36,866 nt of DNA from Methanolobus sp. (GTDB taxonomy: Archaea; Halobacteriota; Methanosarcinia; Methanosarcinales; Methanosarcinaceae): the NCBI GenBank assembly GCA_029762595.1, contig JARVGJ010000022.1:1-36866 (forward strand). Direction: 5' to 3'. Position 1 is the first letter of the stretch, and each line of letters begins with the position of its first letter. Below the pieces are notes generated by a model. That model saw nothing but the letters and a program-made list of their open reading frames with translations. It made no database searches and was not told the origin of the DNA. A program made the position numbers and the translations under genes. Shown here one piece after another: positions 5,925 through 23,995 of this stretch.

Positions 5925-7198
5925 GCTTTTTCCTCCCACCTTGTATCGTTGTAATTGGTATCTATCCTTGAGTTCCTGAACCTGTCTACGATGTGGCGTC
6001 TTTCAGACACCGGGATCTTTGCGATGGAATCGGCTTTTGACAATGTTGCCGGTATTCCGTTAATTGCCAGGTCGTAGAGCACTTTTCTTGTCATAAGGTT
6101 CTTCAATTCCTCGTTCTTAACCAGTCCGTAGGGTGATTCTATCTTGAACATGGTGTTAAGCTTAGGCACAAATGCCATGAAAAAACACAGGGCATAATCC
6201 TCTGCATCGAACTTACCCCCGGCCAGTTCTGTCACCAGGGGTGAGGTGGACCTTAGCATCTTATCGTAGAACTGGTTTGGCTGCATGAACCAGTTCGTAT
6301 AGGTAATATATTTATCAGCTTCCTTCTTCTTCATTCCTGTCTTTTCCAAAGACAGTGCATTTCTGAAGAACTGGGCATCCACCAGCCACGGAAGGTCAAG
6401 TCCTGGATCCTGTTTTTTCAGTGCCAGCATTATCTGCATGTCCTCCGGGTTCTTGACAAAACCGATAATAGGTTTCATTTTTTCCAGATGATGGTCCATT
6501 ATATCGATATAGTTCTGTATTAGTTCAGTAATGCTGGGTTCACTCCTTATTCTAACCTCTTCGGAATCCACCACCATCCAGTACATGATCCTCTTAGGAT
6601 AGATGGGCCCGTCCATTATGAAAAACCCATTCGCATCAATGCTGTCAAGCATCCATAGTATATGCTCTGACTCGCAAAGGTACATAGCCACATCATGCAG
6701 TATATCGGTTACTTTCCTTTCAAGTGATTCCGGCTGGATTCGGATTATTTTCTTGCGGCAGTGGTTGTTATCGAATGATTCCCAGCCTTTGCTGGTATCT
6801 ATATATATTTTTTTGCTTGCGTTGTACGTGGCTGCCACGATGGTTCTCTTGCTATGGATATCAAGGTCCGTGGGAGTGCTTGCAATAGCACAATGGCAAA
6901 TATCCAGATAAAGGCCATTATCAAATGTCTTAGCAGTGGTACTGCCACTGTCACAGGAGTAAGTCATGGGAAAAGGGTCATCTGACCTTACCATTCTTTC
7001 TATGCTTGCCTTGGCGCGCCTGACCGGTCCGATGGATTGCAGAACGATCTTCCCGTTGTATTCGAGCTTCCTGAGCCTGTCAAGGATATTTTTTACCTTC
7101 TGCGTATCTTCATATTCATCTCTGTCATCTTTGAAACAGATATCGATACGGTCGACTATCTCATGGATCTCTTTTATGTGAACCGGCTCAAGGGTCAT
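5921..7198 (-). CDS. nurA: NurA domain nuclease, HerA partner
   Basis: This 425-residue protein is encoded just upstream of herA with a 4-base overlap. NurA is a Mn-dependent 5'-3' exonuclease and endonuclease that docks on the HerA ring. Visible motifs are the first catalytic block SCDSGSTTAK (Asp83), the second acidic block IMDGPIYPKR (Asp196), and a conserved C-terminal basic/acidic region. The overall similarity to NurA is in motifs and context rather than continuous, which is normal for this divergent family. There is no Shine-Dalgarno before the ATG at 7198. A TATA-like block at 7221-7233 would place the transcript start at or next to the ATG, so the mRNA is probably leaderless. A CAGA-type tetranucleotide tract lies just upstream of that promoter. 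Confidence 0.82.
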   Translation of the reverse strand: MTLEPVHIKEIHEIVDRIDICFKDDRDEYEDTQKVKNILDRLRKLEYNGKIVLQSIGPVRRAKASIERMVRSDDPFPMTYSCDSGSTTAKTFDNGLYLDICHCAIASTPTDLDIHSKRTIVAATYNASKKIYIDTSKGWESFDNNHCRKKIIRIQPESLERKVTDILHDVAMYLCESEHILWMLDSIDANGFFIMDGPIYPKRIMYWMVVDSEEVRIRSEPSITELIQNYIDIMDHHLEKMKPIIGFVKNPEDMQIMLALKKQDPGLDLPWLVDAQFFRNALSLEKTGMKKKEADKYITYTNWFMQPNQFYDKMLRSTSPLVTELAGGKFDAEDYALCFFMAFVPKLNTMFKIESPYGLVKNEELKNLMTRKVLYDLAINGIPATLSKADSIAKIPVSERRHIVDRFRNSRIDTNYNDTRWEEKA

Positions 7199-7517: not shown

Positions 7518-9455
7518 ATGGAAACTTACCATATATTCATAATATTAATGGCAGTCTATCTGCTTGTATTGATAGGCATTGGTCTCTATTTCACAAAACG
7601 TCAGAGATCTGTGACTGACTTTTGGCTTGCAGGCCGTAAAATAAATGCTTTAAATATTGGTTTCTCTGCAGCTTCCTCGTGGATGACCGCGGGTGGCATA
7701 CTGGCCGTTATCGGTTTTTATATGCTGCTTGGAATGGGTTCCATATGGGGTTTTGTAGCTCCGAATATCCTGGCACTTATCCTTATAGGTCTTCTTGTAG
7801 GTAAGATCAAACATCTTCCGGCAATCACACAACCTGAATTGCTGGAACAGAGATACAGTAATGTTTTACGTGCTCCCGTTGCTATAATCATTGTAATTGT
7901 AATGACCCTGTTTGCAGTTGCAGATATCAAGGGTCTTTCACTTGTGCTTGAGGTCTTCTTTGGTCTGCCGCCAATATATGCTGCAGCCATAGTTGCAATT
8001 GCTATCTCTGTCTATGTCACTCTTGGAGGCTTCTCTGCGGTCATATGGACAGACACTATACAGTTCCTGATGCTTGCGACCTTTTCAATTCTGATAGCAG
8101 TTGTGGTTGTCAGTGCAGCTACTTCAGGATCTGTGGATGTTCCTGCAATAAGCACATCTGAACTCTTTGGCAATGTACCTTCAGAATGGTGGAACCCGTT
8201 CATTATTGGTATTCCTATTGTGATGATATTCATATTTGCAATTATACCAGGGTGGATCACAGAGCAGGACCCATGGCAGAGGGTTTGGGCAGCAAAAGAT
8301 GAGAGGTCTGCAAGGAATGGTATGTTCTTTGGATCATTTTTGGTATTCATCGTTTTTGGTCTTGCATGTGCTGTAATTGCCATAGGCCTTAGCCATATAT
8401 ATCCTGCAATACCTGCCTCATATTCAGAGCTTGGGATGGCTGCAATGGTCCAGGCGGAACCTGCATTGCTTGTGTTCATTGTAGAGAACCTTTCACCCCT
8501 GGCCCTTGGACTGTGTGCTGTAGGTCTTGCTGCTGCAGCCATGTCATCAGCAGACACTTTTGCAACTTCCGGAGGTTCATGTATCTCACGTGACATATAT
8601 CAAAGGTTCATAAAACCCGATGCCACAATGAAGCAAATGATGGTCATTAACAGGATAAGTCTGGTAATAATCATTCTTATGGCAACCCTGCTCTCATTCC
8701 GCATCCAGAGTATCATCGATGTTATCCACATTGCAACCTTCATTGCAAGTGCATCATATTTCTTCCCGCTCATGGGAGGCCTTTTCTGGAAGCGTGCAAC
8801 TAAGGAAGGTGCCCTTGCAGGACTTATAGCGGGAGCTGTTACACAGATCGGGCTTACGGTGGTCGACATTGTAAAAACTCCTCCTCTTTCACCCTATTAT
8901 CTGGAAACTGTTCATCCTCTGCTTGCACACCACGGTGTGATAGCAGGAATGGTATTCAGTGGAATAGCATTCTTTGCAGTGTCCCTGGCAACAAAACCGT
9001 CAAGTGCCGTGAACCTTGCACCTTTCTTTGCAGACGAGGCAGCAAAGCTTGAAAAGGAAGTAATCGGAATTGTCGATGAGGCAGATCCGGAATATAAGAA
9101 GCTTCTTGGTGTAATTGACAGGGAAATCACCGGTGACCGTGCAAGTGTAAAGCTCAACCTTGAAGCATCTGCAACAATCAACTGGGATAAATTCCTAAAT
9201 GAGCTCAAGTCCATTCATCCTTCCTGGGTTACACCATCAGGCAGGGACTCTGTCTACAGGCTTACCAAGGCTGATATGCTTGCCTGCGTTTCCCTGACCC
9301 GCGGAGAGAATGAAAAAGAGATCTGGTTCTCATCCGAACCTATGGCAGCTGACCTAGACCTTAGCACAAAGGAATTCCTTTTGGCTTTCAAGCAGGTTGC
9401 TGAGGCACTTAGCAATATCGGTTTGCTGATGACACTGCCATCCAGCGACAAATAA
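7518..9455 (+). CDS. Sodium:solute symporter (SSS family)
   Basis: A 645-residue integral membrane protein with about 12-13 hydrophobic segments between residues 5 and about 515. SSS hallmarks are FWLAGRKINALNIGFSAASS early on, the TLGGFSAVIWTDTIQFLML segment, ITEQDPWQRVWAAKDE, and the conserved MSSADTFATSGG. These proteins import solutes (proline, pantothenate, betaine, acetate and others) using a Na+ gradient; the substrate cannot be assigned. The last 130 residues form a hydrophilic cytoplasmic tail. The start at 7518 has AGAGGT 7 bases upstream; the earlier in-frame ATG at 7488 lacks one. The gene is flanked by tetranucleotide repeats on both sides and appears monocistronic. Confidence 0.88.
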   Translation: METYHIFIILMAVYLLVLIGIGLYFTKRQRSVTDFWLAGRKINALNIGFSAASSWMTAGGILAVIGFYMLLGMGSIWGFVAPNILALILIGLLVGKIKHLPAITQPELLEQRYSNVLRAPVAIIIVIVMTLFAVADIKGLSLVLEVFFGLPPIYAAAIVAIAISVYVTLGGFSAVIWTDTIQFLMLATFSILIAVVVVSAATSGSVDVPAISTSELFGNVPSEWWNPFIIGIPIVMIFIFAIIPGWITEQDPWQRVWAAKDERSARNGMFFGSFLVFIVFGLACAVIAIGLSHIYPAIPASYSELGMAAMVQAEPALLVFIVENLSPLALGLCAVGLAAAAMSSADTFATSGGSCISRDIYQRFIKPDATMKQMMVINRISLVIIILMATLLSFRIQSIIDVIHIATFIASASYFFPLMGGLFWKRATKEGALAGLIAGAVTQIGLTVVDIVKTPPLSPYYLETVHPLLAHHGVIAGMVFSGIAFFAVSLATKPSSAVNLAPFFADEAAKLEKEVIGIVDEADPEYKKLLGVIDREITGDRASVKLNLEASATINWDKFLNELKSIHPSWVTPSGRDSVYRLTKADMLACVSLTRGENEKEIWFSSEPMAADLDLSTKEFLLAFKQVAEALSNIGLLMTLPSSDK

Positions 9456-9530
9456 TCTGATTGTAAAAAAATTCCTACATTGCTCTGGATTCTTTTTCCG
9501 GGGCATTTTTATCATTTTTCGGATTTATCT

Positions 9531-9553
9531 GTTCGTTTGTTTGTTTGTTTTTT
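9531..9553. repeat. Tetranucleotide tract (GTTT)n after the symporter
   Basis: GTTC is followed by four GTTT units and extra Ts. It sits between the symporter terminator region (T-runs at about 9492-9520) and the promoter of the next gene. Confidence 0.65.
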
Positions 9554-9657
9554 AATTCACTAAACGGGTAAATATTTATTTACTTTCTATCTATTATTCC
9601 TATACTATTTCAAAAGCTATCTATAATTTAAGTTCTCTATATATATTTGTGGTACAT

Positions 9658-9963
9658 ATGGAACTGAAAAATCCTATTCTGGATATTGAGATGACTGAAG
9701 AGAACAGGGAACAGATCCAATCCCTGAAAGATCTTTTTGAAGAATTAAACCCTGAAGAAAAGTTCGATGTCGTGGAACTGCAGAACATAATGCTTCAAAG
9801 GCTTTCGGGTCGTAATGATAGGTATGCTTTCCCGCAGGGTAGCAGAAAAGCACAAAGGGATGAAACTCAGATAATATCCCACATGTCAAGCAGGTCACTT
9901 GATTACTCACAGATGTGCATCAATTATTATGTTTCAAAGATCTCTTCTGTCCTGGAGAAGTAG
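9658..9963 (+). CDS. Small uncharacterised protein, about 101 aa
   Basis: I do not recognise a named family. The protein begins MELKNPILDIEMTEENREQ and is highly charged and helical. It has a leucine-spaced middle (LFEELNPEEKFDVVELQNIM) and a C-terminal segment with two Cys/Tyr-containing helices (SQMCINYYVSKISSVLEK). No signal peptide or membrane segment is visible. The start is uncertain. The ATG at 9658 has no good Shine-Dalgarno; a GTG lies three codons earlier and another ATG at 9691. AT-rich blocks at 9619-9646 could serve as the promoter. The stop is TAG. A cytoplasmic regulatory or scaffold protein is possible, but this is a guess. Confidence 0.6.
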   Translation: MELKNPILDIEMTEENREQIQSLKDLFEELNPEEKFDVVELQNIMLQRLSGRNDRYAFPQGSRKAQRDETQIISHMSSRSLDYSQMCINYYVSKISSVLEK

Positions 9964-12790: not shown

Positions 12791-12814
12791 CTAATAAGTA
12801 TGGGATGTATATCA

Positions 12815-13558
12815 ATGCGGATACCTACAGGAATAGAAGGGTTTGACGATCTTGTTCAGGGCGGTTTTCTGACTGAGAGGGTTTATGTATTAAGCGGTCC
12901 ACCGGGAAGTGGAAAAACAACATTCGGTGTTCAGTTCCTTGCCCATGGGGCAGCAATGGGTGAAGTGGGCCTGTATATTACTTTACTGGAATGCCCGCAG
13001 AATATCATCAATGACATGTCCAATTATGCCATGAATGTTCCCACGCTGATCAAGATGAAGAAACTTCTCTTTGCCGACCTTGGTCCTCGCATGGAATACG
13101 GTTATATGGATGAGCTAAACGAATTCATCACCACTGATTATAATGTTGGCAAGAGCTCCATTGAAAGCGAGGCTCCATCACCTTCTATGGTCTTCAAAGA
13201 GATTGCGGCCTATGTATCGGAATATGATGTAAAGAGGCTGGTAATTGATTCGGTTTCTGCTATCCGCTTTACCACAAAGGACCTGTCTTTGCAGGAAAAA
13301 GAGATGAGCAGGTTCATACGTAATCTTAAAAAGCTTGGGTGTACCACGGTTCTGTTATCTGAGATGACAGATCCGACTGCTTATTCAACCGAGCAGTTTG
13401 CTGCACACGGGGTTATTTTCATGCACAATTTCCTATATGATAAGACCATGACCCGTGCTTTGCAGATCATAAAGATGCGCGGTACAAAGCATGATTGTAA
13501 TATGCGCAGTGTCACTTTCACCGACAGAGGATTGAAAGTTGAAGGCTACATTGAATGA
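12815..13558 (+). CDS. KaiC/RadA-like RecA-superfamily ATPase (RAD55 family)
   Basis: A single-domain KaiC-type ATPase of 247 residues. It begins MRIPTGIEGFDDLVQGGF, the standard entry to the domain. Walker A GPPGSGKTT spans about residues 28-36, the LYITLLE strand carries a catalytic-Glu-type position, and Walker B is RLVIDSVSA. Such proteins (COG0467) bind ATP, often oligomerise, and act in signalling, motility or recombination mediation; which of these applies here is not visible. The ATG at 12815 is preferred because the domain starts there and GGGATG lies 6 bases upstream; the ATG at 12800 would add five residues. The partner gene follows after 12 bases. Confidence 0.83.
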   Translation: MRIPTGIEGFDDLVQGGFLTERVYVLSGPPGSGKTTFGVQFLAHGAAMGEVGLYITLLECPQNIINDMSNYAMNVPTLIKMKKLLFADLGPRMEYGYMDELNEFITTDYNVGKSSIESEAPSPSMVFKEIAAYVSEYDVKRLVIDSVSAIRFTTKDLSLQEKEMSRFIRNLKKLGCTTVLLSEMTDPTAYSTEQFAAHGVIFMHNFLYDKTMTRALQIIKMRGTKHDCNMRSVTFTDRGLKVEGYIE

Positions 13559-13570
13559 TGGTTGTTTAGA

Positions 13571-14083
13571 ATGGTAAAGATATTTAAGAGGGCAGGAGAA
13601 AAAAAGATCCTTCCCGAAGAAGGCAGGGAGCAGCTTGCAATCGCATCTCAGCGGCTTGGTTTTGAGGTGGGTTATCATCGCCACTCAGAGATAGGGTGGG
13701 TCCATGAGAAATTAACCCAGATCTACAGATTTGCTGAAGAATATGATCTCAGGGATTTTGTAAAGGAAAATTACAATCGTGGTAAAGAGGAAGGTTCAAA
13801 GACAAAGGAAAGAGATACTAAATCAGGTCTTTCCGGAGGTATATCTTCTCAAGAGCCTGAAAAAACACCTGGCTTTACATTTGAAAGATCAAAAAACGAT
13901 CAAACTCTCCCAAAAACAGACGTGGGTTACAAAAGCTCTACCATCTCAGTACCTGTTGCCTCGAATATGATCCTACAGCCTGGTCTGGTTGATCTGCCTG
14001 ATAACATAGAGAGGACCAAAGCCATAGAAAGACCTTCATTTCTTGATGGTGCCAGGCATCTGACACCTAAAAAAAACAAATGA
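13571..14083 (+). CDS. Uncharacterised protein encoded with the KaiC-like ATPase
   Basis: I do not recognise a named family. The 170-residue protein has a basic, helical N-terminal half (MVKIFKRAGEKKILPEEGRE to about residue 75, with HRHSEIGWVHEKLTQIYRF). It is followed by a Ser/Thr/Pro/Lys-rich, probably disordered tail that ends in basic ARHLTPKKNK. No Cys clusters or membrane segments are present. It begins 12 bases after the KaiC-like stop, so co-transcription is very likely. The ATG at 13571 is chosen over an in-frame TTG at 13562. A role as adaptor or substrate of the ATPase is an inference from position only. Confidence 0.7.
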   Translation: MVKIFKRAGEKKILPEEGREQLAIASQRLGFEVGYHRHSEIGWVHEKLTQIYRFAEEYDLRDFVKENYNRGKEEGSKTKERDTKSGLSGGISSQEPEKTPGFTFERSKNDQTLPKTDVGYKSSTISVPVASNMILQPGLVDLPDNIERTKAIERPSFLDGARHLTPKKNK

Positions 14084-14098
14084 ATGCGTAAAAACGAT

Positions 14099-14114
14099 TA
14101 TTTTTGCCTTTTTT
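14099..14114 (+). terminator. T-rich terminator between convergent genes
   Basis: Two T-runs (TTATTTTTGCCTTTTTT) follow 15 bases after the stop of the plus-strand pair. This is typical of archaeal poly-U termination. The minus-strand GTPase gene ends 6 bases further on. Confidence 0.5.
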
Positions 14115-14120
14115 GAACAG

Positions 14121-15158
14121 TTAATTCTCATGGCCAAAGGCAACAAATCTTTGTTTCTCATCAAGGTTTGCCAGGATGAACCTGTCTTCCTTACTGTAAG
14201 CGATCTCCTTTGAACCGGATAACTTCAAAACATATTCTTTTGCGGGTTTAGCAGTTTCTTTTCTTGCGTCTCCCTCTAAGATCTCAGTAACTCTCACAGG
14301 TGAAGACTGGAGTCCTGTGTAAAGGTGCAACATATCATTTACATTGAATTCCTTTGTAAGAGGTGAAAGAGTACATCTGAGCACAAGATCAGTAGCAACA
14401 TTTTCTTCCTTGGAGAGTACAAAGCCCCTGTCAATATCCTTTGATTGGACACCTTTTAGAGCCAGTCCAACCCGGGCACCTGCAGGAGCGGACCTAACAT
14501 CCACATCGTGCATTTGAATGGATCTGATCTCAAGTTCCTTTTTAGCTGGATATGCGATCATTTTATCTTTTGCATTAAGGGTTCCCTGCATGACAATCCC
14601 GAGCACCACACATCCGATTCCCGTTACATTGAATGACTGATCTATTACCACCCTTGTCGGCATATTGTCAAGTTCTTTTAGTTTTCTGTCTGCTATGTCA
14701 CCTACCGAGAATATGAGTTCTTTTAGTTCTTCCATACCTTCAAAGGATGTAGTTGACACAGATAGATAGTCCCAGTTCTCAAGGCAGGTGCCTTTTGTGA
14801 TCTTCTGCAGCTTGGCCTGGAGTTCTTCCTGAGCAATAGGGTATGATGTATCGGATTTTGTGAGAACCACGATCCCATGTTCATATTGCATCAGGTCAAG
14901 TGCGATAATACATTCTGCAGCAAGCTGGTCAAGTCCGGATGGCGGGATGCATAAAAGAGCAATATCAGAAAGGTTAAGTGCTGTAACCAGTGACTTGACA
15001 GATGCCGGGTATCCGGTGGCATCAATGGTTGTGAGTATCCTGTCGTTCTTGGCATAATCGTACATTGTTATGTCAGTGACATTACTTTTCTTTCCAAGTT
15101 TCCCGGCAAGCGTGGTCTTGCCGCTTTTCTCACTTCCGATGATAGCAATCTTTGTCAT
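14121..15158 (-). CDS. SelB-like/EF1A-like translational GTPase with degenerate switch motifs (aSelBL type)
   Basis: A 345-residue protein with an EF-Tu-like G domain, then domain II (PTRVVIDQSFNVTGIGCVVL, the typical beta-barrel entry) and domain III. The P-loop GSEKSGKT (8-15) and base-recognition TKSD (100-103) are present. The G3 motif reads DATGY (46-50) instead of DTPGH, so the catalytic His position is Tyr. Only about 30 residues separate G1 from G3, leaving little room for a normal switch I. It matches the archaeal SelB-like family described by Atkinson and colleagues, which occurs without selenocysteine. An AAGGTG Shine-Dalgarno supports the start. It lies 52 bases after the RNA ligase gene on the same strand, so one operon is likely. 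Confidence 0.8.
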   Translation of the reverse strand: MTKIAIIGSEKSGKTTLAGKLGKKSNVTDITMYDYAKNDRILTTIDATGYPASVKSLVTALNLSDIALLCIPPSGLDQLAAECIIALDLMQYEHGIVVLTKSDTSYPIAQEELQAKLQKITKGTCLENWDYLSVSTTSFEGMEELKELIFSVGDIADRKLKELDNMPTRVVIDQSFNVTGIGCVVLGIVMQGTLNAKDKMIAYPAKKELEIRSIQMHDVDVRSAPAGARVGLALKGVQSKDIDRGFVLSKEENVATDLVLRCTLSPLTKEFNVNDMLHLYTGLQSSPVRVTEILEGDARKETAKPAKEYVLKLSGSKEIAYSKEDRFILANLDEKQRFVAFGHEN

Positions 15159-15210
15159 ATGGGCACCTTTTTGTGGTTTACGAATTAATCTACTCGGATA
15201 TATGTCTTTT

Positions 15211-16377
15211 TCATGACCAAAGCTGACCTTCCAACATTGCCATTGTCTTATCGGTTGTACTCTTGTTTATTTTCCTGACCTCTACTACATAATCTTCACC
15301 AATCCTTTCCGGTGTTCCAAGAACCACATAGAGCCCGAACCTTTCCATATACGCTTTGAATTTGTGGATGACATTCTCGTCTCTGACCCTTATACAGAAA
15401 TCATCTGATAGTCTTTCACCAGTTGCTACCTGGGCTATTGTTCCTTTCATCGGAAGAAGTATGCTCTCACCAAGCCTTTTGCACCTTTTTTGGAACTCTT
15501 CCTCATCTTCAGACCATTCATAGGACTGGAAACCTTCACGCACCACCCGGGAGAAAAGATAATCGCGTCCTGCCTCGTTGTAGAACCTGAATGCCTGCTC
15601 CAGATCTGAGCAATTGCTCTGGGAACATGTGTATTTAATTGGTTGCAATACCATTTTGGGGTCTTTGATAACAACACCCTCATGCCCCTTTTCACCCAAT
15701 TCTCTGATGATACCTGTGATCTTAGCCGATGCTTCATTGATGCTGAATTCCCCGAAAAGCCGTACCTGATTGAAGCCGTATTCTTCTCCCAGTTCTCTTC
15801 TTTGACAGACCTCTAACGGCTCTCCTGTATCTTTGTATCTCATATCGAAAACGAAGAAATCAAGTGAATCTATATCATAGATATTCTTCTGAACATATGG
15901 ATTATCAGGACCTGCCATTTCTCCGTAGACAATAATGTCAGGATGATCCTGGAAAAAATCCCTTTTAAGAAAGTTCTGCACTCTCTCTGTGGAATATGGG
16001 CAGACATGACCACTACGGGTAAAGGCAATAAGTTTACCTCTGTAATCCACAACACGGACATTATATCCGTTCATCTTCTCTTCAACAACAACCGATTTTA
16101 TCTGGCTGAAGTTCCCCTTCAGTGCAGGATCAAGGAGCATTGCCCTTTTTATCTTTGGAAAACCACGTACCAGTTCGAAAGAGCCATAATGATCGATCAG
16201 CGCGGTTCCATTTTCAATCTGTGGTGCGTGTCCTTCGAAGCGGTAAATATTGCTGTACTCATCCCAATTCTGCCTAAGGTTACCCTTTTCGATTATCTCT
16301 GAAAGCCTGGAAGGCGGAAGTTCCAGGAACTCGGCCGCCTTCTCAATATCAAGTTCTGTTTCCTTATAATATCTCAT
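15211..16377 (-). CDS. ATP-dependent RNA ligase, archaeal Pab1020/Rnl3 family
   Basis: A 388-residue covalent nucleotidyltransferase of COG1423. Motif I is EEKMNGYN, with the adenylated Lys at about 101 (KMNG). LIAFTRSG, VYGEMAGPDNPY, DFFVFDMR and EGVVIKDPKMVLQPIKY correspond to motifs Ia, III, IIIa, and IV to V. The C-terminal region (YSWSEDEEE onward) fits the family's extra dimerisation domain. The characterised Pyrococcus and Methanothermobacter enzymes join or circularise single-stranded RNA through 5'-adenylated intermediates. The ATG at 16377 has AGGTG upstream; the GTG at 16380 is a weaker alternative. It starts 18 bases after the stop of the CBS gene upstream, so it is part of the same transcription unit. 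Confidence 0.88.
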   Translation of the reverse strand: MRYYKETELDIEKAAEFLELPPSRLSEIIEKGNLRQNWDEYSNIYRFEGHAPQIENGTALIDHYGSFELVRGFPKIKRAMLLDPALKGNFSQIKSVVVEEKMNGYNVRVVDYRGKLIAFTRSGHVCPYSTERVQNFLKRDFFQDHPDIIVYGEMAGPDNPYVQKNIYDIDSLDFFVFDMRYKDTGEPLEVCQRRELGEEYGFNQVRLFGEFSINEASAKITGIIRELGEKGHEGVVIKDPKMVLQPIKYTCSQSNCSDLEQAFRFYNEAGRDYLFSRVVREGFQSYEWSEDEEEFQKRCKRLGESILLPMKGTIAQVATGERLSDDFCIRVRDENVIHKFKAYMERFGLYVVLGTPERIGEDYVVEVRKINKSTTDKTMAMLEGQLWS

Positions 16378-16395
16378 CACCAGACACCTGGTTCT

Positions 16396-17172
16396 TTACT
16401 GGACCATTCCGCTGATGATACTTCTTCTGGTGATCAGTCCCACCATCTGTCCTTCAAGGTTGACAACAGGCAACCCTCCGAAGTTCTCTTCAAGCATCAT
16501 CTTCGCCGCATCGCTTGTTGAAGTGTTCGTGTATACTGTTTTGACACCCATTTTCATTATATCTTCCACGATGAGGTTCTTTATGCGTGATTCCTGCTTG
16601 CTGCCCTCCACGAGGTCACGGAAGGAACGCATTGCATTTGCAATGTCTTTTTCAGTAACGATTCCCACGATCTTGTCGCCTTCCATTATAGGTATCCTTC
16701 CAATATTGTTGTCAAGCATCAGTCTTCTGATATGGATGACACGGTCAGCAGGGCCTGCAACAATAGGATTCTTCTGCATGATCTCTCCTGCATACCCTTT
16801 GAAATTGTTGTTCTTGAGGATCTCATTTGGTGTTACCCAACCAATTATCTGTTCGTTCTCAACAACAACCAGTACTCCTCCATTCTTTACCATTATTGTG
16901 ATGGCATCGTTCACCTTCGTATCAGGCAGGACTTTTACGTAGTTGTCTGAGATAGCTGTTGCCACATGAAGGGATGAAGCTGGTTTGTTTCCCTTTTTGC
17001 GTGTTCCCAGCTCTTTTGTCAGATTTCTCATGGTAAGTACTCCAAGCAGCTTGTCATCGTGTTTTACCAGAAGACGTCTTATTCCCTTCTTTTCCATAAT
17101 ATCAAGTGCATGGGAAATAGTATCTGATTTATCTACTAGTACTGGGTCTGCCATTATATCCTTTACTTCCAT
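16396..17172 (-). CDS. Four-CBS-domain protein
   Basis: 258 residues made almost wholly of four CBS motifs. They begin [16 protein letters not shown], then a less typical second ([16 protein letters not shown]), [15 protein letters not shown] and [15 protein letters not shown]. Each ends in the usual G-V/I/W-T/L-x-x-D/N/R strand-helix. Tandem CBS pairs bind adenosyl ligands (AMP, ATP, SAM) and regulate partners; no catalytic domain is fused here. The ATG at 17172 has a good AGAGG Shine-Dalgarno, and the first CBS motif starts immediately, as in the upstream paralogue. The alternative is a GTG at 17220 overlapping the upstream stop (GTGA), adding 16 residues. Placement directly before an RNA ligase that consumes ATP and releases AMP suggests adenylate sensing, which is inference. 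Confidence 0.87.
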
Positions 17173-17216
17173 TATAATTCCTCTGATATTGTTTTGGTCT
17201 TTTGATCCTTCGAAGC

Positions 17217-18056
17217 TCACTGAACTGCTTTTAGTATATCCCTTCTGCTGATGATCCCGGTGATTTGTCCGCCGTTGGTCACAGGCAGGGCTATAGTATG
17301 CTCATCAATCATTATCTTTGCAGCATAAACCGCCTTATTTTTCATATCAACTGCTGGTGGCAGTTCTGACATGATGTCCTCAGCAACAAGGGGTACTTCT
17401 TTTATGTAACGATATTCTTTCTGGCCGGCAGGGCTTGAGCGCCTTGTCATCTTTATGCTCTTTGAAGGCAGGTTCCCTTCGTTGTCGGCCATAAGGTTAA
17501 ACGCCACATTGGTAGTGGTTATTATACCGACAGCTTCATCGGAATCGTCATTGACGATCACACGGTTTGTCTTGTTCTCTTCCATTTCGCTGATAACATG
17601 GTTGATCGTGTGATGCCTGTGGACGAACACGATATCATCTGTCATTATCTCTGATACCTTTGTGTTTATATCCTGCTCTGAGAAGTACTTCATAATGTCA
17701 GTTCCTGTCACTATGCCTACCACTTCCCTGTTCACCACCGCAAGTGAGTTTATGCCGTTCTCTATCATCAGGTTGCTTGCCTGGGCAACAGATGCCCCAG
17801 GATATATTGTGATAGGATTCTCATGCATCACCATGTTTACCGGAATCTTGTCAATGGGTCTTCTTCTCCACATCGGTTCGGCTTGTGCCAGCCTTTTTCC
17901 AAGATCTGTCTTTGTGACAATTCCGATCATCTTTTCATCTTTAGCTACCACAAGAGTGCTGATCTTATGTTTCAGCATGAGGTTTCTTGCGTATGCTACT
18001 GTTTCTTCCGGTGCAATGGTAAAGACCGGTGAACTCATAATGTCCTTCACATTCAT
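17217..18056 (-). CDS. Four-CBS-domain protein, paralogue of the downstream gene
   Basis: 279 residues with four CBS motifs: [48 protein letters not shown] and [16 protein letters not shown]. The closing strands are [27 protein letters not shown] and [10 protein letters not shown] linker between CBS3 and CBS4 is Ser/Lys/Arg-rich. The ATG at 18056 is fixed by the strong AAGGAGG Shine-Dalgarno. The reading frame stays open for over 90 bases upstream but has no comparable signal. With the next gene it forms a tandem duplication heading the CBS-CBS-ligase-GTPase block. The ligand and partner are unknown. Confidence 0.87.
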
Positions 18057-18386
18057 GTTGTTCCTCCTTTTGTAAGCCCGGGCCATTATTTCAGCCAAGC
18101 CTGCAGGATATTTTTTTTCTTTTAATCTTTCAAGAGCGCATACGATCAATATCGAAATTGATGTGCTCTTTTTTACTCCTATTCTTCTCCATGGATCCGT
18201 TTACGCATGTGAGGTAAACAAAGACCTATTTTGTAACCACATTTTTTGCGGTCTTGATTCCGATTCAGGGTTCCATTTCCACCTCCTGTTAATATTCAAC
18301 ATCAACTGATGTGACCTTCAGGTTACTTTTGGACCATTCTTTACCAGAATCTTATCGAATATATGCATAGCATGGTTCCTAGGATA
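18057..18386. other. Upstream region of the CBS operon with an orphan Shine-Dalgarno and micro-ORF
   Basis: No gene of normal size is present. On the minus strand GGAGGTGG (18279-18286) is followed by ATG at 18276, but the frame stops after three codons (M-E-P-TGA). The adjacent frame runs open for about 30 codons with protein-like composition (NRNQDRKKCGYKIGLCLPH and more). This may be a leader micro-ORF or the start of a frameshifted small gene. Further on, the frame of the CBS gene is open upstream of its ATG. Confidence 0.4.
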
Positions 18387-18786
18387 TTATTCACCCATCC
18401 GTTCATAGTTAACACTGGTGTATTCATAATTTAGGGTATCATCTTTGGAATTGTGCTATTGATTATTCGATGTTCCAGTTCATTGACCTTGTATCTCATT
18501 TCCAATTGAACCACTTCATCCAGGACATCACAAAAAAACCGTGTTTCTCTTGTCAGAATATCCGGAAGTTATGTGAACGACGTTCCAGCTTTCAGGTAAA
18601 TGATCTTTCTGCATGCAAATGTGCTATTGCTTTTCAAAATGCAGTTAATATACAATGCCTGTTTGCAGTAACAGTGGATCCAGCTAACACAGAATACCAG
18701 GCTCTTATCATTTTACCTGGTTCTAATTGCAGTGTTGCTTTGAAAGTCGATACATTCCTTCTTTTAAGACATATCGGGACAGACAT
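18387..18786 (-). pseudogene. Possible eroded gene between CBS genes
   Basis: Minus-strand reading gives protein-like pieces in different frames. A 50-codon ORF lies at 18634-18786 (MSVPICLKRRNVSTFKATLQ onward, ending CILTAF). A highly charged helical piece at about 18431-18541 begins RFFCDVLDEVVQLEMRYKVN. A piece ending TLNYEYTSVNYERMGE stops at 18387. Stops and at least two frame changes separate them. A competing plus-strand ORF (18470-18838) has no start signals. I do not recognise the parent family; it may instead be non-coding. Confidence 0.33.
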
Positions 18787-18834
18787 TTATTTCACCAGCT
18801 TGAAGTGTCCTTTATCAGTTGACCAGTCAAAGAA

Positions 18835-19443
18835 CTAGTCGTAGTAACCCTCATCCTCTTTACAGTCCTCACAAAGCATCAATCCGTTAACATCCGCAAG
18901 ATTATCTACAAAAGCGCTGCAACGCTGGCAAATACCACGTTCAAACTCCTGTTCCTGCCGGACATCACTTTCATGATGCAGTTCGATAAGACCTTCCAGG
19001 ATAGTTGTCAGACCGGGAGCAATGGCAATTATATCCCTGTCAGTTATCATCCCGGCTATCTGGTCACCTTCCATTACGGCAAGTCTGCGAATGTTGTATC
19101 TGACCATCATTTCAGCAGCTTCGATTATATTTGTGGAAGGTTTTATAGATATTATGGGAGATGACATGATCTCTCTGGCTATCATCTCTGCAGGAAGGAC
19201 ATTCCTGATAACGGTCTTGATTATAATGTCATGTTCAGTTATGATACCAATGCTATCTGCATCATCTTTTACAATGATGCTATCAGTATCATTCTCTGCC
19301 ATCTTTCTTGCGACTTCAAGGACATTGGCAGCAGCATCGATGCCAACAATGTTCTTTGACATCGTTTCCCTGACCAACATATCATTCTGTATCTCCAGAA
19401 TCGAGCTGTCGGTTTCCATGCCATTATGATTATTCAAGACCAT
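18835..19443 (-). CDS. CBS-pair protein with C-terminal zinc ribbon
   Basis: 202 residues. Two CBS motifs (VRETMSKNIVGIDAAA with IGIITEHDI, and AREIMSSPIISIKPST with AGMITDRDI) are followed by a short helical linker. A C-terminal C-x2-C ... C-x2-C ribbon (ICQRCSAF and LMLCEDCKED) presumably binds zinc. CBS plus zinc-ribbon proteins are common in methanogens and are thought to couple adenylate or other ligand sensing to protein or nucleic-acid contact. The ATG at 19443 has GGAG 8 bases upstream and a TATA block at about 19515-19525 on the minus strand. The stop is TAG; readthrough would add 15 codons (FFDWSTDKGHFKLVK) before TAA. It is separated from the other two CBS genes by the eroded stretch. 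Confidence 0.85.
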   Translation of the reverse strand: MVLNNHNGMETDSSILEIQNDMLVRETMSKNIVGIDAAANVLEVARKMAENDTDSIIVKDDADSIGIITEHDIIIKTVIRNVLPAEMIAREIMSSPIISIKPSTNIIEAAEMMVRYNIRRLAVMEGDQIAGMITDRDIIAIAPGLTTILEGLIELHHESDVRQEQEFERGICQRCSAFVDNLADVNGLMLCEDCKEDEGYYD

Positions 19444-19514
19444 AAGATGTTCTCCAGAATCCCGGATTAAAGGAAGTTGTTACCTATAGTCCACAATTAA
19501 AATGTGACTGTTAT

Positions 19515-19525
19515 TCTATAAATAG
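19515..19525 (-). promoter_or_regulatory. TATA box of the CBS/zinc-ribbon gene
   Basis: The minus strand reads CTATTTATAGA about 75-80 bases before the ATG, giving a leader of roughly 50 bases. The rest of the gap between this gene and rpa (19444-19667) shows only a 24-codon ORF without a Shine-Dalgarno. Confidence 0.4.
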
Positions 19526-19667
19526 GTGTTCGTGCTTTCTTTTCAATGTCCTCCTGTGGAACACAATGAGCTTATTGATGTTTATTTCAGTGAGGATTAT
19601 TGATCTGTGACATCCCTTGGTATTTCCCTGTCCTTTCTGATATCTTAAGTTCAATGATCATGTTGTT

Positions 19668-20795
19668 TCAGCGGACCATTATCTTTGTTCTGTTTCCTGC
19701 GCTGAGCTCGATCTCATCATTAAAGCCCGATCTGGCATATCCATCTATTATCTCCACGGACATATCAATATCCAACTGGTCTACAAGAAGTGCATGGTCA
19801 CCCCACAAAGCTACGCGTATCCTGCCTGTGTCGTCTGATACATATATATTTGAAACCATATTCACAGTGCCGTCATCGCGATTGAATTCACGTATCTCAC
19901 CAATTCCGGACACCTGCCCTGCTATTGAGTAGGATTCGCCAGGTATGATATCCGAGACAGGTGTGAATTCCTCCCTGAATTCTATCTCTTCTTCTATTTT
20001 GCGGATTGAGCTGCGATTTCCAATCTGCATTTCCACCTGCTGGTTGAAATTATTCTCCCGTGCATATCCATTGATTATCTCTACGGAATCATCCAATTCA
20101 AGGTCCTTTGTAAGGTCTGCCATCTCGTCCCAGAGAGTCACCCTTATCTTGCCTGTTCGATCGCCTATCAGGACGTTTGCTACCTTTCCTGTTCCCCCGT
20201 CTTTTTTGTTGAAAGTCCTTATGTCGGATATATCCAGGATACGTGCACGAATATTAATGTCTCCCATTCCGTTCTTAATATCCTCTATTTGTTGGGATTC
20301 AATACGTGCCTCAACTTTTTCATCGCTCTCACAGAACACACCATTATTACCGATATTCACCTCTATTCCAGAGTAACCTTCCTTAACGTAACCTGCTATC
20401 TGATAATTCTGACCTATTTCGACCTCTCCTGTCTTTATGAGGTCTGCCCGCTCGTCCCACAATGTCAGGCGTATTGAACCGGTTTCATCAGCAACTATGA
20501 TATTGGCTACCCGGCCGATGGTGCCATCGTTGCGGTTGAATTCTTTTGCAGGGAAAACTGACATGATCTTTGCAATGAACTTGACATTATTACAATTTGG
20601 ATTTATGTCCGCTATTTTCTGTAATTGTGTTTCCCCATTGTCACTGACACCCAGATCATGAGCCACGAGCATGGCGGCTGTCCTGGTGTCGCAGAGCCCG
20701 CTCATTTGTTCAACCTTTTCTTCAACTTTACGTGTAAAATCATCTTTACTGATGATACCGCCCAATTTTTCGTATACTTCTTTTATCTCATCCAT
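19668..20795 (-). CDS. rpa: Replication protein A-like single-stranded DNA-binding protein, three OB folds
   Basis: 375 residues with a short helical N-terminus (about 1-65) and three similar OB-fold units, at about 67-155, 175-265 and 285-375. Each unit carries the repeated wording R-x-F-N-R/K-x-D-G-x-x-x-x-V-A/S-N-I/V followed by D-x-T-G-x-I-R-V-x-L-W. That is typical of archaeal RPA, which coats single-stranded DNA in replication and repair. No C-terminal zinc finger is present, so it is like the all-OB RPA1 type of Methanosarcina, which has four OB folds in M. acetivorans, rather than the two-OB plus zinc-finger types. A weak AGGGT precedes the start, and a TATA block (TTATATAA) lies near 20880 on the minus strand. 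It is transcribed alone. Confidence 0.88.
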   Translation of the reverse strand: MDEIKEVYEKLGGIISKDDFTRKVEEKVEQMSGLCDTRTAAMLVAHDLGVSDNGETQLQKIADINPNCNNVKFIAKIMSVFPAKEFNRNDGTIGRVANIIVADETGSIRLTLWDERADLIKTGEVEIGQNYQIAGYVKEGYSGIEVNIGNNGVFCESDEKVEARIESQQIEDIKNGMGDINIRARILDISDIRTFNKKDGGTGKVANVLIGDRTGKIRVTLWDEMADLTKDLELDDSVEIINGYARENNFNQQVEMQIGNRSSIRKIEEEIEFREEFTPVSDIIPGESYSIAGQVSGIGEIREFNRDDGTVNMVSNIYVSDDTGRIRVALWGDHALLVDQLDIDMSVEIIDGYARSGFNDEIELSAGNRTKIMVR

Positions 20796-20965
20796 AATAA
20801 TACCCTGAAATGTGAATTTAAAGTCTGAATATTATACTGATCAATTATCCATCTATCTCTTGCCTAATCTAGTATTCTCTTATATAATTAATCTAACGAA
20901 AATGTTCTCATTACCAAATGTTTGCCATTGCGTATTTTGAGATGATGGTTGTGCCGTTTTAATAA

Positions 20966-20975
20966 GTTATATTAA
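20966..20975 (+). promoter_or_regulatory. TATA box of the RNA 2'-phosphotransferase gene
   Basis: GTTATATTAA lies about 25-34 bases before the ATG at 21000. This suggests a leaderless or very short-leader mRNA; the AGGTG at 20981-20985 is too far from the ATG to be an ideal Shine-Dalgarno. Confidence 0.4.
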
Positions 20976-20999
20976 TTATGAGGTGTATTTGCAGTTATC

Positions 21000-21635
21000 A
21001 TGATCCGTAAATGTAAAGAGCATGGCTATTTCAGGGGAGAGAGTTGCCCTGACTGTGGAGAGGAAGGACGTTATGTGCTGGATGATGATCGGGAAGAGCG
21101 GCTTGGAAGATTCATTTCCGGTGCATTGAGACACTTCCCTGAAGATGTGGGTATTGAAATGGATGCTCAGGGTTGGGTGGTTCTGGACAAGCTATGTGAT
21201 ATAATGAAAAGGCGTTACAAATGGGGTACCATGGAGCGTCTGGTATCACTTGTGGAATCAGACTGGAAAGGGCGCTATGAGATAGACGGACGTTACATAA
21301 GGGCAAGATATGGACACTCAGTAGATGTGGACCTGATATCCGACTATCCTGAAAATGAACTGCAGTATCTGTATTACGGTGTTAGTCAGGAGGAAACGGA
21401 CATGTTGCTTGACAATGGGATCTCTCCTATCAGGCAATGCTATGTACACTTAAGTACGTCGTTTGAAAAAGCAATGAATGCTGCTTCGGTACATACAGAC
21501 AATCCGGTTATTATCGAGATAGACGCAAGTGCAGCCCAGCAGGATGGTGTGGATATCGTTACAGTGAATGATGATATAGTGCTTGCAAGGGGAATCCCTC
21601 CAGAATACATCAGCGTTGTGGAATCCGGGGATTAA
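21000..21635 (+). CDS. kptA: RNA 2'-phosphotransferase (Tpt1/KptA family)
   Basis: The family removes a 2'-phosphate from RNA splice or repair junctions using NAD+, producing ADP-ribose 1'',2''-cyclic phosphate. In this 211-residue protein the catalytic set is visible: R44-H45 in GALRHFPED, the Arg in IRARYGHS (about 100-107), and the Arg before CYVHLS. The NAD-binding wing (VIIEIDASAA) is followed by GIPPEYI near the C-terminus. The first 25 residues form a small zinc-ribbon-like module (CKEHGYFRGESCPDCG), seen in archaeal members. It is convergent with rtcA, with only 3 bases between the stops. Archaeal targets are unclear because archaeal tRNA splicing leaves no 2'-phosphate. Confidence 0.93.
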   Translation: MIRKCKEHGYFRGESCPDCGEEGRYVLDDDREERLGRFISGALRHFPEDVGIEMDAQGWVVLDKLCDIMKRRYKWGTMERLVSLVESDWKGRYEIDGRYIRARYGHSVDVDLISDYPENELQYLYYGVSQEETDMLLDNGISPIRQCYVHLSTSFEKAMNAASVHTDNPVIIEIDASAAQQDGVDIVTVNDDIVLARGIPPEYISVVESGD

Positions 21636-21638
21636 TCC

Positions 21639-22634
21639 TCATTCCAATGATATTTCCGCAAACCCTTCTGTTTTGTTGATGCTGAATCGGACATCAAGTA
21701 ATTGTTCTGTTATGTGTATATTTGTGAGGCAATGTTGTGTAAGTTCCCTGACCATGAAAGAACCTCTTCCTGCAAGTCCTATATATGGTATTAATTGGTC
21801 TGCAAGGTGTATATCCACATTTGCTCCGGATAGCAGGTCCTCAAGCAGCATCTTTGCGGCCTGTGTGCCAACTTTTTCTGCAGCTAGTCCCTTTTTACCA
21901 ATGCTTGCAGCTCCTATGAGGCCAGACCATAGTGTAATCCCGCTTCCGGTAGAGGGTAAATTCTTAGTCTCAGTGTCAATACGAGCTTCGATCCCATTTT
22001 TATCAAGCAATCTTTTTGCGCAAAAAGCCTGTCTTTGAGAGATATGCTCAGGCAGGTTGGAACTATGCGAAACCCCATATGTGGCACTTTTGCTTTTTTG
22101 AAGATCAGATCCTTTCAGTCTGGAGGGTTTGATCTCTATTTCTGCAAGACCTCTTCCCTTTGGGTAATATCCTCTCTCTATAAGCCTGATACTTGCTTTG
22201 TATCCCATTTTTGAGAGGGCTTTTAATGTCACATTTTTCATGTAATCTATCGAAGGCGACCAGGTGACATCTGTTCCACCTGTGATACTAAACTTTGTCC
22301 TCCCGGAGGAATAAGCGGCCATTGGCATGATAGATTGCATGAGTAAGGAAATGCTCCCTGCAGTACCGATGTGTATATCCGCGTCAACCCCCCTTATTTC
22401 CGATGGAGAAAAGTATATCTCAGTTGATCCTGCAAAAAGTCCCCTTACATCGGCGCCACACATCAGGGCCATTGTCTCTACAGATCTGACATGTTGAGGT
22501 TTAAGTCCTTCATGCGGGCGGTTGCTGCGTATGTTTCTGATGTGTACCTCTTCTTTGATAATAGCCGAAAGGGCAATAGATGTCCTGAGTATCTGTCCTC
22601 CGCCTTCTCCGTATGAACCATCTATTTCTATCAT
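21639..22634 (-). CDS. rtcA: RNA 3'-terminal phosphate cyclase
   Basis: RtcA converts RNA 3'-phosphate ends to 2',3'-cyclic phosphates through a histidine-AMP intermediate, using ATP. This 331-residue protein starts IEIDGSYGEGGGQILRTSIA, the family signature, and has RPHEGLKPQHVRSVE and GRGSFMVRELTQHCLTNIHI. The His of QHCLTN (about 301) is the expected adenylation site. The length is normal. It starts 5 bases after the stop of the flavoprotein gene upstream, so the two are co-transcribed. No RtcB gene is visible in the window. The end-processing chemistry pairs logically with KptA and the RNA ligase. Confidence 0.94.
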   Translation of the reverse strand: MIEIDGSYGEGGGQILRTSIALSAIIKEEVHIRNIRSNRPHEGLKPQHVRSVETMALMCGADVRGLFAGSTEIYFSPSEIRGVDADIHIGTAGSISLLMQSIMPMAAYSSGRTKFSITGGTDVTWSPSIDYMKNVTLKALSKMGYKASIRLIERGYYPKGRGLAEIEIKPSRLKGSDLQKSKSATYGVSHSSNLPEHISQRQAFCAKRLLDKNGIEARIDTETKNLPSTGSGITLWSGLIGAASIGKKGLAAEKVGTQAAKMLLEDLLSGANVDIHLADQLIPYIGLAGRGSFMVRELTQHCLTNIHITEQLLDVRFSINKTEGFAEISLE

Positions 22635-22639
22635 GTCTT

Positions 22640-23995
22640 TTATTTACGCATCTTTTTCAGAGCACCCTTTGCAGCAAAACTTACAGGGTCTATTAGCATT
22701 GCTACTGGTGGGGCATAACAGGTTTCGATGCTTGCCAGCTCATCTGCTGTTGTTCTCTTTTTGATGGCCAGTGTAAGAGCATCGATGCGCTCTTTTACTC
22801 CTTCACCTCCGACAACCTGAGCTCCTATAAGGTACCTGTCACTGAATATGAGTTTAATGTATAATCTGCTTCCTCCAGGGTAATATTCAGCCCTTGTGGA
22901 ACCTGTGGAAATGCCTGTTACTATTCTGATACCATTTTCAATTGCTTCTTTTGACGTGCTTCCTGTGCTTCCTACCTGTATCTCTCCGATAACGGCTATC
23001 CATGGATTCAGGACCGGGCCAAATGTTGCAGGCCCTGAGCTAAGGTTTGCAGTTATAGTGCCTGCCATCCTTCTCGCACTGCCTGCTATCTGACCTAACA
23101 TTGCTTTTCCGCTGATAAGGTCGCATAGTTCTACACATTCCCCACCGCAATAGATGTCAGGGTCATACTCTCCCTTAACAGAAGGGTTTAGATATTCATT
23201 TACGATGATGCCTCCGGTTTCACCAATATCTATCCCTGCAGCTGATGCCAGCTCGTTTTCCGGTTCAACACCTGTTGATATTATCACTACATCTGCGGGG
23301 AAATCCGTTGAATCAACTGTAACAGATTCAACAGATCCGTTCCCATTGATGGAACGGGGTACGTAGCCTGTAATTACCTTAACGCCCAGGGATTCGAGGT
23401 GCTCCCGGACAGGCTCTGCCATGTCAGGATCGATGTTGTGAGCGAGTATCGATGAACTTCTATTGATAAGTGTTGTGACTATGTTCCTTCCAGCAGTGGC
23501 AACAGCAAGCTCAGCACCAATGGCTCCGCCTCCTATAATGACAACATTTGAAGCATCCTCAAGTGCTTTTTCTATCCTGATCGCATCGTAGAGTGTCCTT
23601 AAGGTGAATACGTTCTTAAGTGAGGTTCCGTTTATATTCTCTGGTATCTTTGGTCTGCTTCCTGTTGCAATCACAAGTTTGTCAAAATGATGGTTTTTCC
23701 CTTCACAACGTATGAAACGTTCTTCCAGGTCAATTCCATCTACTTTTTTCCCAAGCCTGAGGTCTATTCCCATACCTTCAAAGAATTCCTTGTCCCTCAA
23801 TATAAGTGACCCTAGGTCCTTTATTTTCCCTCCTATGGCAAAGGGCATACCACACTGGCTATATGCAGTTTGACTATCAGCAGAAAATACCGTTACTGAA
23901 TAATCACTGTGACGAATAAGGCCTGTAGCCACTGCCATACCCGCAGCACCACCGCCTATTATAATTGCTTTCTTTCCATTGTTTTTGTTTTGCAT
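22640..23995 (-). CDS. CoA-disulfide reductase/NADH oxidase-like flavoprotein
   Basis: A 451-residue pyridine nucleotide-disulfide oxidoreductase. It has the N-terminal FAD site IIIGGGAAGM (11-20), a single redox Cys in AYSQCGMPFAIGG (Cys48, as in CoA-disulfide reductase, NADH oxidase and NADH peroxidase), the NAD(P) site VVIIGGGAIGAELA (151-164), the FAD-contact motif DIYCGGECVE, and a C-terminal dimerisation domain. It could reduce CoA disulfide, polysulfide or oxygen with NAD(P)H; methanogens use such enzymes for thiol balance or oxygen defence. The ATG at 23995 is preceded by AAAAGGAC at very short spacing, and an AT block near 24010-24024 suggests an almost leaderless transcript. It heads the two-gene unit with rtcA. 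Confidence 0.87.
   Translation of the reverse strand: MQNKNNGKKAIIIGGGAAGMAVATGLIRHSDYSVTVFSADSQTAYSQCGMPFAIGGKIKDLGSLILRDKEFFEGMGIDLRLGKKVDGIDLEERFIRCEGKNHHFDKLVIATGSRPKIPENINGTSLKNVFTLRTLYDAIRIEKALEDASNVVIIGGGAIGAELAVATAGRNIVTTLINRSSSILAHNIDPDMAEPVREHLESLGVKVITGYVPRSINGNGSVESVTVDSTDFPADVVIISTGVEPENELASAAGIDIGETGGIIVNEYLNPSVKGEYDPDIYCGGECVELCDLISGKAMLGQIAGSARRMAGTITANLSSGPATFGPVLNPWIAVIGEIQVGSTGSTSKEAIENGIRIVTGISTGSTRAEYYPGGSRLYIKLIFSDRYLIGAQVVGGEGVKERIDALTLAIKKRTTADELASIETCYAPPVAMLIDPVSFAAKGALKKMRK

Follow-up and report, generated by a model that had tools for sequence, protein, structure and literature searches.

A putative reduced ribosome-dormancy gene cluster of Methanolobus with an Rnl3-family RNA ligase and a SelB-like protein

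CBS-module proteins have been sorted into families CM-1 to CM-6, and a "CM-5/4/1/2 cluster" has been described (Madru 2026, PMC13324472). According to the available extracts of that paper, CM-1 and CM-4 were reported in dormant ribosomes of M. acetivorans (Nissley 2025, as cited there), the CBS module of HibA binds AMP, ADP and ATP with dissociation constants of 12, 65 and 113 µM, and both Dri and HibA have a long insert or loop between CBS3 and CBS4. The Sri proteins are known from PDB titles, retrieved via Foldseek, of M. acetivorans 70S entries dated January 2026: 9znf (with SriA and SriB), 9zng (with SriD) and 9zni (with SriC and SriD). No paper on them was found in the open-licence literature (preprints not included), and an eventual one may discuss the gene neighbourhood. 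A link between HARP and the Rnl3 RNA ligase has been described as well (Seshadri and Gopalan 2025, PMC12153264), the adjacency of the two genes not being universal (163 of 501 archaeal cases in the available part of the text). Here we analyse a block of four genes in a 36,866-nucleotide stretch of Methanolobus sp. DNA (contig JARVGJ010000022.1, the whole stretch being called the window below), which encodes two four-CBS proteins, CBS-A and CBS-B, an Rnl3 ligase and an archaeal SelB-like protein, aSelBL. An earlier sequence-only reading of this DNA knew of no described system of such composition. That was partly wrong: the accessible text of Atkinson 2011 (PMC3037878) notes that in Methanosarcinales aSelBL ("EF-Pyl") is preceded by a ligase, which in turn often follows a CBS gene; it calls the enzyme a DNA ligase and regards the significance as uncertain. 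Parts of the neighbourhood are therefore already in print (2011, 2025, 2026), while no paper joining the Rnl3 ligase with the Sri/CM dormancy genes was found in the open-licence literature, again without preprints.

Judged by homology, the block represents a reduced form of an archaeal ribosome-dormancy cluster (families CM-1/2/4/5) which carries Rnl3 and aSelBL. CBS-A and CBS-B, with four CBS stretches each according to Pfam, are shown by homology to be orthologues of the ribosome-bound SriC and SriD. In the PDB sequence comparison CBS-A matched 9zni_6 (341 bits, E 3e-101) and CBS-B matched 9zni_7 and 9zng_7 (351 bits, E 3e-104). Since chain 7 is present both in 9zng (SriD) and in 9zni (SriC and SriD), CBS-B corresponds to SriD and CBS-A to SriC. 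Structure models agree: the best Foldseek match of the CBS-A model (predicted local distance difference test, pLDDT, 84.8) is 9zni_6, with 58% identity in the structure alignment, and the top match of the AlphaFold2 model of CBS-B (pLDDT 89.9) is 9zng_7 (template modelling score 0.95, root-mean-square deviation (rmsd) 1.1, 62% identity). As an independent check, ribosomal protein uL2 of the window genome matches one sequence common to 9znf, 9zng, 9zni and four published M. acetivorans ribosome entries. The link to translation guessed by the sequence-only reading turns out to be stronger than supposed, as the CBS orthologues sit on the 70S ribosome. By analogy, CBS-A and CBS-B would bind ribosomes and serve in dormancy in this organism too.

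The CBS-A model has a beta-hairpin (residues 198-222) between CBS3 and CBS4. In 16 of 16 SriC sequences the hairpin loop is basic, with a net charge of +3 to +7 against -1 to -17 for the acidic body, and positions 199, 205 and 216 are K or R; helices take the place of this hairpin in the SriD model. All 16 SriC sequences retain the ligand motif Gxx(T/S)xxD in CBS1 and CBS2, while 5/16 have it in CBS3 and 10/16 in CBS4; in SriD it is found mainly in CBS3 (13/16). Energy sensing by the CBS proteins is plausible, given their AMP-binding relatives and the conserved ligand motif. Identity with an anti-phage CBS protein was considered and rejected, as both four-CBS proteins score 56-58 bits with the NCBIfam model against a cut-off of 260.

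Relatives possess two further four-CBS genes, x and y, located between a zinc-ribbon CBS gene and CBS-A. Methanosarcina x matches 9znf_4 (473 bits) and y matches 9znf_5 (662 bits), the two chains being SriA and SriB in one order or the other according to the PDB title. Sequence matches thus give all four four-CBS proteins of the full cluster close relatives in ribosome structures. A phylogeny built from 104 proteins sorts the x, y, A and B types into four clades, each supported at 100/99 or better (SriC clade 100/100). CBS-A is probably CM-1 and CBS-B CM-2, the mapping of x/y/A/B to CM-5/4/1/2 being based on gene order and Dri matches and not on the published CM tree. Loss of both x and y from the organism could be expected from the neighbourhood, but it is ruled out by a CBSx gene on another contig of the window genome, C11 (308 bits). 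No CBSy orthologue was found in this assembly (best match 39.5 bits), and the 778-base gap that separates CBS-A from the zinc-ribbon CBS gene gave only chance-level matches to x or y (best E 0.006 over 38 amino acids). In one relative (L232, 8843-10576, minus strand) x and y are fused in a single 577-amino-acid frame that matches both profiles (450 and 550 bits); the fusion is Dri-like and joins a pair whose relatives occur together in 9znf.

The ligase is a full Rnl3-family RNA ligase, predicted to be ATP-dependent. It scores 389.7 bits with TIGR01209 (cut-off 136.9), and Pfam recognises RNA_ligase (PF09414) and Lig_C, the Pab1020-type C-terminal domain PF18330 scoring 133.3 bits. Lys102 (EEK102MNG, the motif I lysine) and the other catalytic motif residues Glu234 and Lys249 are invariant in 18/18 sequences. 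By its nearest named relatives (77% identity of the ligase) the DNA belongs to Methanolobus. In six Methanococcoides-type loci (L048, L049, L053, L063, L069 and L125) the ligase frame contains a TAG codon (number 66, 67 or 85), probably read as pyrrolysine, whereas L050 and L139 lack a TAG there. The L045 ligase is broken into two pieces that overlap (206 and 209 bits), through a frameshift or a sequencing error.

Conservation of the block was followed in 294 genomes of the window's phylum, Halobacteriota (loci, genomes and family labels are given as L, G and f), 119 of which have Rnl3 above cut-off. We took 80 of the 118 ligase loci besides the window's own, all families being complete except f6 (48 loci, 38 left out); 80 loci including the window had enough upstream sequence (L065 was dropped as too short and L079 kept by hand). 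In 58 of these 80, SriC and SriD precede Rnl3 in the same orientation; ten more, all in f6, carry the y gene together with the zinc-ribbon gene there, and the remaining 12 (f10, f15, f20, f26) have no CBS-cluster genes upstream. Counted by genome, all 58 that have both genes and are assembled across the site show SriC upstream of Rnl3 in the same orientation, which upholds the expectation that the block is conserved in relatives; in a 59th (G226) the two genes are on different contigs. Such a recurrence is far beyond chance. CBS genes are retained at 28 of the 40 ligase loci outside the window's family. The distance from CBS-B to Rnl3 has a median of 12 bases (59 rows, including a spurious weak match in L110). 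Methanothermobacter too has CBS genes next to its ligase (MTH1221-1226), names for which a literature search gave no result. A scan of genome contigs yielded mostly sequences of Methanosarcinales and their relatives.

The CBS cluster also occurs alone. Among 20 SriC loci from genomes lacking Rnl3 above cut-off, 18 have an intact five-gene CBS cluster and one (L196) has CBS-A and CBS-B only. In L203 SriD is split in two frames (8867-9680) and an Rnl3 remnant (40 bits) lies beside it, about 2 kb past the SriC start, HARP being kept in this genome (G010). No other RNA ligase was seen in the slot of Rnl3 in the SriC loci of genomes without it; the next genes there include MscS (L200), RtcA on the other strand (L196) and deoxyhypusine synthase, the latter found next to or near SriD in L197 (by profile) and in L210, L212 and L215 (by eye).

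The features of the window block are collected in Table 1. The four genes, all on the minus strand at 14121-18056, are separated by gaps of 52, 18 and 44 bases when Shine-Dalgarno-supported starts, chosen by eye, are used; the place of the open reading frames (ORFs), their strand and the gaps agree with the sequence-only reading here. The Rnl3 ORF (15211-16380) opens with GTG and has an ATG at 16377. For CBS-B (ORF 16396-17220) the better start is the ATG at 17172 behind a Shine-Dalgarno-like GAGG, and for CBS-A (ORF 17217-18149) the ATG at 18056 behind AAGGAGG. The four-gene extent first proposed stands in itself and is too narrow: the zinc-ribbon CBS gene is the first gene of the conserved cluster, present upstream in 66 of the 80 ligase loci with enough flank.

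Table 1. Coordinates of the block and its upstream features in the window.
Feature	Coordinates	Strand	Remarks
aSelBL (archaeal SelB-like protein)	14121..15158	-	345 aa; PDB 3wnb 389 bits; selB below cut-off; GTPase motifs partly broken
Rnl3-family RNA ligase, predicted ATP-dependent	15211..16377	-	TIGR01209, PF18330 and PF09414; PDB 5d1o 291 bits, 2vug (PAB1020) 205 bits
CBS-B, four-CBS protein, SriD orthologue by homology	16396..17172	-	258 aa from ATG 17172; 9zni_7/9zng_7 match
CBS-A, four-CBS protein, SriC orthologue by homology	17217..18056	-	279 aa from ATG 18056; 9zni_6 match
CBS-A leader	18057..18125	-	ATATCCTGCAGG-like motif, then hairpin and AAGGAGG; candidate element common to many Methanolobus
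Protein with two CBS domains and zinc ribbon	18835..19443	-	PF00571 x2; zinc ribbon read by eye

A TCCT in the CBS-A leader could pair with the Shine-Dalgarno sequence, the consensus fold being weak (-2.3). Rfam gave no match over window positions 13500-22700, so a riboswitch at the block was rejected and the leader hairpin is kept as a lead. Further away, at distances of up to about 7 kb from the ligase, the window encodes the RNA 2'-phosphotransferase Tpt1/KptA (21000-21635, plus strand) and the RNA 3'-phosphate cyclase RtcA (21639-22634, minus strand). Their linkage to the ligase is confined to the window's family; RtcA adjoins SriD in the unrelated L196 too. The window also contains HerA-like and NurA genes (4047-7198, minus strand), an archaeal DNA end-resection pair.

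The last protein of the block has EF-Tu domains 1 and 2 (Pfam). Its selB score of 126.5 bits is under the equivalog cut-off (242.25), so it is SelB-like and not SelB; the match stops at position 297 of the profile (length 581), and there is no C-terminal extension. Its G3 motif reads Asp-Ala-Thr-Gly-Tyr instead of DxPGH, the catalytic His being replaced by Tyr in 6/6 aligned sequences. Of the 78 loci with sufficient sequence downstream, 40 have aSelBL after the ligase, every one in the window's family (Methanosarcinaceae); outside it there were 0/38 on the same strand and one on the other strand (L083). Among the 294 genomes aSelBL and SriC are shared by 95 and occur alone in 22 and 23, the resulting phi of 0.681 being confounded by descent. 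Of the "translation-factor-like GTPase" proposed earlier, the SelB likeness survives, whereas the altered G3 and the linkage in a single family make the rest an overstatement. A KaiC-like ATPase gene followed by one for a 173-amino-acid protein without Pfam or NCBIfam match (12800-14083, plus strand) is retained next to aSelBL across much of the family.

We consider the most probable explanation, with a probability of roughly 0.6, to be a dormancy cluster with an attached RNA ligase, ribosome parking and low-ATP RNA sealing being parts of one starvation programme. When energy falls, SriC and SriD would dock on idle 70S ribosomes and block the tRNA and mRNA sites, CBS-A possibly through its basic hairpin between CBS3 and CBS4, like the long loop of Dri and HibA. 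Rnl3 would seal 5'-phosphate/3'-hydroxyl RNA ends (C/D-box sRNAs, rRNA or tRNA pieces) in starvation and recovery, and HARP, encoded elsewhere, may cut such ends. We infer the ligase half of the programme from gene position and from the homologous MthRnl, the sealing step (step 3) of which is reported to be inhibited by ATP from about 50 µM. Because MthRnl sealing is itself ATP-inhibited, no CBS gate on the ligase would be needed. If such inhibition is valid here, falling ATP would speed sealing, and the ligase and the CBS proteins would share the low-energy state without contact. The weakest step concerns aSelBL, which may be a non-hydrolysing ribosome or tRNA binder and is tied to the block only in Methanosarcinaceae.

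Several observations weigh against this explanation. Among the PDB matches there was no ligase or aSelBL chain of the 9zn entries. Neither AMP nor ATP shifted HibA on the ribosome, as reported in the available extracts of PMC13324472, and the ATP inhibition of sealing comes from a thermophile enzyme in vitro only. In the sections available of PMC12153264, a T. kodakarensis ligase knock-out and HARP knock-outs of H. volcanii and M. mazei had no growth defect under the conditions tested; as described there, these knock-outs did not probe recovery from starvation. Rnl3 and SriC are weakly associated among the 294 genomes (both 59, Rnl3 only 60, SriC only 58, neither 117; phi 0.165). The Rnl3 tree, in which the CBS-linked ligases fall to the same side of a branch with 100/100 support, fits a single origin of the linkage, so the 58 linked cases amount to one event and its retention. 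Finally, since gaps in the block widen to a kilobase or more in Methanosarcina, a single transcript is not general.

That single origin also serves the leading alternative, according to which only ancestry is shared: Rnl3 joined the Sri cluster once, the order was never broken, and the ligase works with HARP on circularisation of C/D-box sRNAs, unrelated to dormancy. Circularisation of C/D-box RNA by Rnl3 is indeed reported in the accessible part of PMC12153264, where the HARP link was already published. The window genome encodes HARP (G000:C33:34706-35353, 280.8 bits) on a contig other than that of the ligase, and of the 294 genomes 116 have both proteins, 3 Rnl3 only, 5 HARP only and 170 neither (phi 0.944; p-values mean little for co-occurrence among related genomes). 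Passive inertia explains poorly, though, that the gene order spans nine family labels (f1, f2, f3, f6, f12, f18, f19, f27, f31) and has outlasted all seven other window neighbours tested, which gave one weak match in the 40 loci outside the family (Lpd, 25 bits, L106). We regard shared ancestry alone as rather improbable. A bolder extension of the dormancy explanation is similarly doubtful: in such a dormancy island CBS modules would park ribosomes, an ATP-released ligase would seal or circularise cut rRNA, tRNA or guide RNA for restart, HARP would supply the ends and a GTPase-dead SelB relative would guard or clear the tRNA site.

The sequence-only reading had proposed an energy- or ligand-gated RNA joining module linked to translation, in which AMP/ATP would control the ligase through CBS proteins bound to it. 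The invariable gene order and the close spacing fit this proposal, as do the ligand motif retained in CBS1 and CBS2 of SriC and the reported release of AMP by RNA ligases. The known partner of the CBS orthologues, however, is the ribosome, the homologous ligase is already ATP-responsive by itself, and no CBS-ligase fusion was noticed in the loci read; the PDB matches, as said above, include no ligase or SelB-like chain of the 9zn entries. The co-occurrence partner of the ligase is HARP (116/119 genomes) and not the CBS genes (59/119), so a strict CBS-ligase machine is unlikely. Since the CBS cluster occurs without Rnl3, and Rnl3 without SriC (60/119 genomes), the cluster as an Rnl3 regulator was rejected as the main explanation. 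Energy sensing is thus retained as plausible and the CBS gate on the ligase is given up as very unlikely. That the CBS proteins regulate transcription like the stand-alone CBS-module regulator HhpR (PMC13324472, as far as available), or sense ligands for other enzymes with ribosome binding as a side effect, can practically be dismissed: the HhpR matches are weak (49 and 54 bits, cut-off 520), the ribosome-bound chains match with six to seven times as many bits, and the tree in the same extracts sets HhpR in a separate family, CM-3.

Overall, the block is real, conserved and mostly explicable, and its interesting part is why a sealing enzyme stays beside dormancy factors. HARP and Rnl3 are widespread in archaea, and their reported knock-outs have no growth defect; the positional tie to dormancy genes directs the search to starvation and recovery rather than growth. 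The conserved order across many archaea points to RNA sealing in ribosome storage or restart when energy runs out. Dormant ribosomes may need repair of RNA ends besides shielding, and aSelBL, an orphan translation factor, gains a likely setting. If the dormancy island existed as sketched, RNA repair would be built into ribosome hibernation.

Several known systems can be compared with the block. HibA, in the available extracts of PMC13324472, has a four-CBS module like CBS-A and CBS-B, which may share its parts in ribosome hibernation and adenylate binding; it differs by an HPF/RaiA domain fused to the CBS module, none being found by Pfam in the window proteins. Dri of Pyrobaculum calidifontis (9e6q/9e7f) has four-CBS modules on the ribosome, and the CBS-A model aligns with Dri residues 331-633 (Z 19.3, rmsd 3.7, 248 aligned) and 17-291 (Z 17.7, rmsd 3.8, 244 aligned); in Dri two CBS modules are fused in one chain, in the window they are two separate genes. 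The CM-5/4/1/2 cluster, as far as the paper is available, resembles the window block in having four-CBS proteins in a gene cluster, while neither a ligase nor SelB is named in that paper (0 occurrences). aSelBL, or "EF-Pyl", of PMC3037878 (in the part available) belongs to the same family as the third protein considered here. Pab1020, MthRnl and the ligase of the HARP-ligase pair are of the same family as the window Rnl3, and HARP is found in the window genome too; the paper on that pair (PMC12153264) makes no mention of CBS or hibernation, and the window ligase adjoins Sri genes, not HARP. Among the M. acetivorans Sri proteins (9zni, 9znf, 9zng), SriC and SriD are orthologous to CBS-A and CBS-B, with the identities given above. 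Of their set the window block keeps only SriC and SriD, with CBSx (9znf_4 type) located elsewhere and CBSy (9znf_5 type) without an orthologue.

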